Assembly: GCF_011250645.1 (NCBI RefSeq) | Contig: NZ_JAANNO010000005.1 | Coordinates: forward strand, 214,863 to 278,862 | Direction of reading: 5' to 3' | Source: Motilibacter aurantiacus | Lineage (GTDB): Bacteria; Actinomycetota; Actinomycetes; Motilibacterales; Motilibacteraceae | DNA length: 64,000 nt | In this document: positions 48,018 to 59,625 of the stretch, piece after piece | Position numbering within the stretch: the first letter of the stretch is position 1 | Layout of the letters: the number at the start of each line of letters is the position of its first letter | Translations under genes and position numbers: made by a program | The notes under the pieces: model-generated | The model's database searches: none | Seen by the model: the letters and a program-made list of their open reading frames with translations, nothing else | Told to the model about the DNA's origin: nothing

Positions 48018-49427
48018 ATGACCCGCTTCCCCCGCCCGTCCCTGCCCGGAACGAGCAGCCGTTCCGTGGCCGTCGCGGTGACGCTCCCGGTGGTGGCGGC
48101 CGCGCTCGTCACGACGCCGGCGGCGCCCGCCGCCGCCGCGTCGACGTACCTGCAGGTCAGCACGAGCGCTGACCGCAGTGGGGGGGTGCCGCTCGACGGC
48201 CGGACGCTGACGGGCAAGGTCTACGTGTTCGTGCCGGTGGTGGCCGGGGGCACCACCGCCTCCTTCTGGGTCGACGACCCGGCGGCGAAGGGCAAGCCCG
48301 CGCAGGTCGAGAGCAGCGCTCCGTGGGACCTCGAGGGCGGGGCGGCGACCGCCAAGCCCTGGGACCTGCGCTCGTTCCCCTCGGGGCAGCACACCATCAC
48401 GGTTCGCTTCTCGGTGGACGGCAAGGAGGTCACCGAGACCGCGTCCGTCACGGTCGTGTCCCCGGTGCCCGCCGCTCCGGCCGCGCCGGCGCCGGCCGCC
48501 CCGGCCCCCGCCGTGCCGGCGGCCCCCGCCCCGGCTCCGGCAGGCGCCTCGGCTCCCACAGCGTCCGCGCCCGCGGCGTCCGCGCCCGCGGCGTCCGCGC
48601 CCGCCGCCTCCGTGCCCGCCGCCTCCGTGCCCCCCGCCGCGCCGACGACGGCCGTGGAGTCCCTCGCCGCGGCCGCGGTGGTGCCCGCCGGCTACCCCAG
48701 CGCGTCGAACACGGGCGTGCCGAAGGGCACCAAGCTCACCAAGAGCGGCGGGATCACCGTCACGAAGGCCGGCACCGTGATCGACGCCCTCGACGTCTCC
48801 GGCTCGATCAACGTCAAGGCGAACAACGTGACCATCCGCCGCAGCCGCATCGTCAACGGCGGGGCCAACTACCCGGTGCGCCTCTTCTCCGGCTTCTCCG
48901 GCCTGGTCGTCGAGGACACCGAGATCAACGGCAACGGCAACGCGTCCGTCGGCATCTGCTGCAACAAGTTCACCCTGCGCCGGGTCAACCTGCACAACTC
49001 CGTCGACGGCGTCCGGGCCGACGGCAACGTGGTCGTCGAGGACAGCTGGATCCACGACCTCGCCCGCACGCCCGGCTCGCACAACGACACCATCCAGACC
49101 CTCAAGGGCAGCAACATCGTGATCCGGCGCAACACCCTGCTGCCGTACGACGCGGCTGCGGGCGACCCGCACAACGCCGCCTTCATCATCAGCGCCGGCA
49201 CGAGCGGCGGCGCGGTGGACGACGTGCTGCTCGAGAAGAACTACGTCAACGGCGGCAACTACACGCTCTACCTGGGCAAGGGCGGCGTCCACCCGGTCAC
49301 CGACGTCACCGTCCGCGGGAACCGGTTCGGCCGCAACTTCCGCTTCGGGCCGGTCACGGCCCTCGGCGCGGACACCACGTTCGACGCCACGAACGTCTGG
49401 AACGACACCAACCTGCCGGTGCGCTGA
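48018..49427 (+). CDS. Secreted right-handed beta-helix protein with N-terminal Ig-like module (copy 1)
   Basis: 469 aa. Signal peptide to about residue 43 (APAAAAS). Residues about 45-155 form a module with VPLDGRTLTGKVYVFVP, SFWVDDP, SAPWD and GQHTITV, shared with the next protein and the giant protein at 54-59 kb. A Pro/Ala/Ser linker (155-215) follows, built on a 15-bp DNA repeat. The beta-helix (220-469) shows repeated coils (VTIRRSRIVN, LVVEDTEING, FTLRRVNLHN) and GSHNDTIQT. NTGVP precedes the helix. Probably binds or cuts a polysaccharide; no catalytic proof. SD GGAGA. Confidence 0.88.
   Translation: MTRFPRPSLPGTSSRSVAVAVTLPVVAAALVTTPAAPAAAASTYLQVSTSADRSGGVPLDGRTLTGKVYVFVPVVAGGTTASFWVDDPAAKGKPAQVESSAPWDLEGGAATAKPWDLRSFPSGQHTITVRFSVDGKEVTETASVTVVSPVPAAPAAPAPAAPAPAVPAAPAPAPAGASAPTASAPAASAPAASAPAASVPAASVPPAAPTTAVESLAAAAVVPAGYPSASNTGVPKGTKLTKSGGITVTKAGTVIDALDVSGSINVKANNVTIRRSRIVNGGANYPVRLFSGFSGLVVEDTEINGNGNASVGICCNKFTLRRVNLHNSVDGVRADGNVVVEDSWIHDLARTPGSHNDTIQTLKGSNIVIRRNTLLPYDAAAGDPHNAAFIISAGTSGGAVDDVLLEKNYVNGGNYTLYLGKGGVHPVTDVTVRGNRFGRNFRFGPVTALGADTTFDATNVWNDTNLPVR
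48561..48632 (+). repeat. 15-bp tandem repeat coding a Ser-Ala-Pro linker
   Basis: About five in-frame copies of a GCGTCCGCGCCCGCG-like unit, diverging at the 3' end; codes (SAPAA)n between the Ig-like module and the beta-helix. Confidence 0.75.

Positions 49428-59625: not shown

Follow-up and report, generated by a model that had tools for sequence, protein, structure and literature searches.

What is the segment that three secreted proteins of one exopolysaccharide locus have in common, and what could it do for them? The window, by which we mean the whole 64-kb stretch of DNA from Motilibacter aurantiacus, a soil actinobacterium, that was analysed, encodes two beta-helix proteins (P1 and P2) and a giant protein of 1716 residues among Wzx, Wzy, Wzz and glycosyltransferase genes (Table 1). 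A sequence-only reading had described an Ig-like segment that occurs once in each beta-helix protein and three times in the giant, had assigned the three proteins to one surface system, and had recognised no named domain with this signature. The description was right on the first points: a module of approximately 105 residues is present in five copies, it has an Ig-like fold in a confident model, and all three genes are within the exopolysaccharide locus. The view that the domain had no name did not survive, as set out below.

Table 1. Features of the locus, numbered from the first letter of the window.
Feature	Positions	Strand	Basis
Exopolysaccharide genes left of P1: GT4, GT2, Wzy-like, Wzz-like, polysaccharide pyruvyltransferase, FrhB-like, two methyltransferase-like	38025..47807	.	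last two named by eye
P1: signal peptide, module, Ala/Pro-rich linker, right-handed beta-helix	48018..49427	+	moderate-confidence model for the beta-helix, weak polysaccharide lyase matches
P1 module copy	48144..48458	+	translation, alignment, genome profile search
P2: tandem P1 paralogue, same layout, Pro/Thr-rich linker	49698..51077	+	sequence comparison
P2 module copy	49824..50138	+	translation, alignment, genome profile search
P3: third beta-helix paralogue, without module, N-terminal hydrophobic segment instead	51143..52069	+	sequence comparison
GT2 and polysaccharide flippase (Polysacc_synt_3, Wzx-like), between P3 and giant	52074..54466	-	Pfam
Giant: signal peptide, three modules interleaved with BACON-like domains, GSDH-like propeller, Kelch propeller	54475..59625	-	Pfam
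Kelch propeller of giant	54538..55323	-	Kelch_1 E 8e-47
GSDH (glucose/sorbosone dehydrogenase-like) propeller of giant, best-matching part	55417..55782	-	E 3e-11
Giant module 3	57595..57921	-	alignment; model pLDDT 93.5; Big_7 21.5 bits, E 3.8e-4
BACON_2 domain between modules 2 and 3, better-scoring of the giant's two BACON_2 stretches	57982..58212	-	E 7e-8
Giant module 2	58522..58845	-	alignment; Big_7 20.1 bits against cut-off of 24.1
Giant module 1	59161..59490	-	translation, alignment, genome profile search
GT4 and two GT2-like genes upstream of giant	59630..63044	-	Pfam for GT4; other two by eye and synteny

The alignment of the five window copies has 21 invariant columns, with 61% identity to the P1 module for the P2 copy and 35–36% for the giant copies. 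The signature is not kept to the letter everywhere: giant copy 1 has APLAG for VPLxG and APHD for APW/FD, and giant copy 2 has VALNG and SPFD at these places. With a loosened motif, five occurrences were counted in the window and none in 100 codon-shuffled windows. When a profile of the five copies was run against the whole 4.6 Mb genome, the only strong matches were these five (E 9e-46 or better), and the next was a C-terminal half-match with E = 1e-3. Because P1 and P2 are paralogues in tandem, with 59% identity over 427 residues, the genome has two independent module-bearing units and not three. These two units lie about 3.4 kb apart in the same exopolysaccharide locus, for which a crude estimate of chance is 0.5%.

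The signal peptides of P1, P2 and the giant were read by eye, and their hydrophobic stretches were measured. P3 is 47% identical to P1, lacks both the module and the linker, and starts with a membrane-anchor-like segment at the place of the module; it is kept in Motilibacter deserti (89%). A structure model of the whole of P1, built from three sequences, was of low confidence (pLDDT 55.5) and matched polysaccharide lyases, tailspikes and RbmB weakly (best E 0.011), which bears out at most a putative polysaccharide-acting beta-helix. The giant is possibly a sugar-oxidising or matrix protein.

The giant is found in four genomes of three genera, and P1 and P2 just in the two Motilibacter genomes. 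In Motilibacter deserti, every compared gene of the stretch is present and in the same order. The counterparts of the giant in Georgenia and Oceanitalea (at 4351-9447 of L016 and 4351-9441 of L021) have 54% full-length identity to it, and they adjoin orthologues of the Wzy-like, Wzz-like, pyruvyltransferase, FrhB-like and GT2 genes. Since these neighbours are kept, the link of the giant to exopolysaccharide is conserved beyond the genus. A secreted giant with BACON/Ig, GSDH and Kelch parts belongs to the conserved content of exopolysaccharide loci in actinobacteria. The FrhB/FdhB-like gene (45129-46448, +) stands beside the polysaccharide pyruvyltransferase gene (43792-45132, +), an adjacency also kept in Georgenia and Oceanitalea. 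Because the locus has a pyruvyltransferase, its polymer may be acidic.

Going by sequence comparison and a predicted structure, we conclude that the module is a previously undescribed subfamily of Big_7 (PF17957), a secreted Ig-like beta-sandwich. The gathering cut-off of Pfam for this family is 24.1 bits, and none of the window copies passes it; giant modules 3 and 2 stay below it (Table 1), and no match was listed for the P1 module. Searches of the full-length window proteins against Pfam and NCBIfam to E 1 gave no Big_7 or carbohydrate-binding assignment over the module and left weak sub-threshold traces. Such a result would suit an entirely new family with no relation to a named domain, but we consider this very improbable, because membership of Big_7 is reached by several routes.

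One route is through relatives of the module. In a wider alignment of 32 module copies (A2), 20 have a Big_7 match and three exceed the cut-off (L014 with 25.5 bits, L015 with 29.7 bits and L019 with 28.9 bits). All three are without the DDPxxxG insertion, which is missing from the N-terminal copies in Marinobacter and Ferrimonas, where the three belong. Another route is profile-profile comparison: the module against 40 collected Big_7 domains gave 97% and a score of 59, and a smaller subset of eight sequences gave 95.7%, while 60 column-shuffled controls reached at most 16.6 and the reversed profile 13.8. The third is structural. AlphaFold models giant module 3 as an Ig-like beta-sandwich with pLDDT 93.5 and pTM 0.86. 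The top structural matches of this model are 3PDD, 3PE9, 9KVU and 3PDG (Z 8.2–8.5, rmsd 2.5–2.9 Å over 81–83 residues), and by sequence all of these chains belong to Big_7 (E 6e-28 to 2e-11). A Z near 8 is weak alone, and it is the agreement of the predicted structure with the sequence comparisons that places the module in Big_7. We therefore rejected a new unnamed domain. The family is also one with a link to glycans (PMC13235733), and not a well-characterised domain lacking such a link.

The module and Big_7 have in common the Ig-like fold and the core VxFyvDG and aPy...dG.Ht.ta. The module is longer, with about 105 residues against 70 positions in Big_7. Its N-terminal strand region is extended and reads L-x-V-S-x4-R-[ST], with the Arg conserved in 95%, followed by a conserved L-x-G. 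The C-C' hairpin carries the DDPxxxG insertion, and the loop that follows the invariant Asp of APxD is longer than in Big_7. It is because of these three additions that the module has a signature of its own. A formerly unassigned signature thus becomes a defined Big_7 subfamily that annotation pipelines miss.

Two other Ig-like families were tried as the identity of the module and rejected. BACON gave 55% and a score of 27.8 in the profile-profile comparison, against the values for Big_7 above, and fn3 gave 0.1% and a score of 8.8 with a small fn3 set. BACON was not among the families listed for the 32 modules, and the best BACON_2 stretch of the giant falls between modules. BACON and BACON_2 are also Ig-like and occur in the same chains, where they alternate with the module, but they are a distinct family. 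An RbmA-type biofilm matrix protein was a weak match (E 0.048, 16.6 bits).

Among domains of known structure, CelAly B1 (PDB 9KVU) has a fold like that of the module (Z 8.2, rmsd 2.5 Å over 82 residues, 21% identity) and is likewise an accessory domain of a polysaccharide-acting enzyme. Recent work has demonstrated that this Big_7 domain binds the gel of an acidic polysaccharide, alginate, by way of Lys40, Arg49 and Arg75; B2 binds alginate gel as well, and Km is raised in an Aly31 construct that lacks B1, B2 and UKD (PMC13235733). We mapped the three residues onto the modules by profile alignment. At these positions the five window copies have E/P/E, S/P/K, S/P/K, T/P/R and A/P/V, so the basic site is not conserved. 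The modules are for the most part acidic, with a median net charge of -4.5, in contrast to the basic face of CelAly B1. The X1 or Fn3-like modules of Clostridium thermocellum CbhA (3PDD, 3PE9, 3PDG) also have a module-like fold (Z up to 8.5) and are Big_7 by sequence; they differ in being internal cellulase modules and in lacking the DDP insertion. They have been proposed as stabilisers or spacers, according to work cited in PMC3966859. The Ig-like accessory modules of two mannanases, Cellulomonas fimi Man26A (2BVT) and the Thermotoga petrophila enzyme (6TN6), resemble the module in structure (Z 6.9) and had no sequence match in PDB profile searches. Like them, our module occurs on GH26 proteins.

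The module is sparse: we found it in 8 of the 394 genomes of the class. The phylum samples, each counting the query genome, gave 1 of 249 for the phylum of the Marinobacter relative and 2 of 151 for that of the Dehalococcoidia relative. The module is spread over three phyla, and a plasmid search with a Marinobacter copy gave no match. Its partners are GH26 (over the cut-off), GH16 and purple-acid-phosphatase-like proteins, GSDH-type giants in Marinobacter and Ferrimonas, and beta-helix, fn3 and malectin-like proteins, some of these named by eye. GH26 proteins carry it at the C-terminus, after a Ser/Pro-rich linker. The module genes are scattered in other genomes, and a two-module Kelch protein in the family of the window organism is outside any exopolysaccharide locus.

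Much of the module tree is without resolution. It does place the P1 and P2 modules beside a module carried by a GH26 protein (100/93), and modules 2 and 3 of the giant beside the Georgenia and Oceanitalea giants (100/99). By this tree, we take the P1/P2 modules and the giant modules to be separate lineages, and the grouping means that the sharing of the module within the locus is not a recent local copy.

For the function, our main reading is that the module is a non-catalytic accessory of extracellular, mostly carbohydrate-active proteins, serving for attachment in the manner of a carbohydrate-binding module on P1 and P2 and as part of a stalk in the giant. We give this a probability of about 0.5. 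The module in P1 and P2 stands at the free N-terminus and is followed by a flexible linker and then by a beta-helix of polysaccharide-acting type; here it would most likely act like a carbohydrate-binding module and keep the enzyme within the polysaccharide matrix of the cell itself. In the giant, the alternation of modules and BACON domains would form a stalk that bears the GSDH and Kelch propellers. Several observations are in line with attachment: P3 has a membrane-anchor-like segment where P1 and P2 have the module, all of the module genes of the genome are in one exopolysaccharide locus, and the binding of alginate gel by CelAly B1 and B2 is a precedent within Big_7.

It is quite possible, however, that the module is passive and binds nothing, and that its effect is just to make the protein longer or stiffer, a role proposed for CbhA X1, for the Ig-like linkers of mannanases and for BACON. 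BACON is regarded as a spacer (PMC11216935, PMC6949934), and the module alternates with it in the giant and in proteins of Marinobacter, Ferrimonas and Oceanitalea. The structural neighbours are linker modules (PMC3966859), and the lack of a conserved basic site in the modules points the same way. What a spacer would not account for is where the module stands in the GH26 proteins and in P1 and P2. There it forms the free end of the chain, on the far side of a flexible linker, with nothing further to space apart, so attachment is favoured in these proteins. The partner domains are also mostly carbohydrate-active. A narrower form of attachment, put forward in outline by the sequence-only reading, is that P1, P2 and the giant would be held together because their modules recognise one common partner, the exopolysaccharide of the locus. 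The closeness of the two module-bearing units in the genome agrees with this, as do the exopolysaccharide neighbours that the giant keeps in Georgenia and Oceanitalea, the whole set kept in Motilibacter deserti, and a polymer that may be acidic when one Big_7 domain binds an acidic gel. Against it, the tree separates the P1/P2 modules from those of the giant and groups them with proteins found elsewhere, and the alginate-binding residues of CelAly B1 are absent from the modules. In addition, the subfamily is found away from such loci on GH26, GH16, phosphatase and Kelch proteins, including the two-module Kelch protein mentioned above, and its genes are scattered in other genomes. We judge a common ligand of the P1, P2 and giant modules to be possible, and the common anchor in its proposed form to be doubtful.

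Returning to attachment as our main reading, the near-invariant columns of the module look structural. The aromatic at module position 43 is conserved in 93% and is a candidate contact, yet it is common in Big_7 too. Because the CelAly site is not conserved and the modules are mostly acidic, a ligand, if there is one, is probably bound differently. The DDPxxxG insertion sits in the hairpin that bears Arg49 in CelAly B1, and could alter specificity. A bolder version, which we think somewhat unlikely, would make the module a new family of polysaccharide binders with the Big_7 fold: DDPxxxG would reshape the alginate-binding face of CelAly B1, and actinobacteria would use the module to keep polymer-modifying beta-helix enzymes and oxidising propeller enzymes in their own exopolysaccharide.

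The subfamily is tied to a type of locus, as the secreted GSDH-Kelch protein is conserved in actinobacterial exopolysaccharide clusters; we found no stated role for this protein. P1, P2, the giant, and the GH26 and GH16 proteins make a small set in which it can be tested whether domains of the Big_7 type are a wider polymer-binding class or mostly spacers.

A cassette of BACON and the module is present on both a purple-acid-phosphatase-like enzyme and a GSDH-type propeller, encoded by unlinked genes, in Marinobacter, Ferrimonas and Oceanitalea (L013, L015, L019, L020, L109, L113). One actinobacterial genome (G322) has 12 module matches (loci L080, L082, L084, L085, L086), several of them C-terminal on GH26 after Ser/Thr/Pro-rich linkers; one in-frame TGA was reported in the L084 match.
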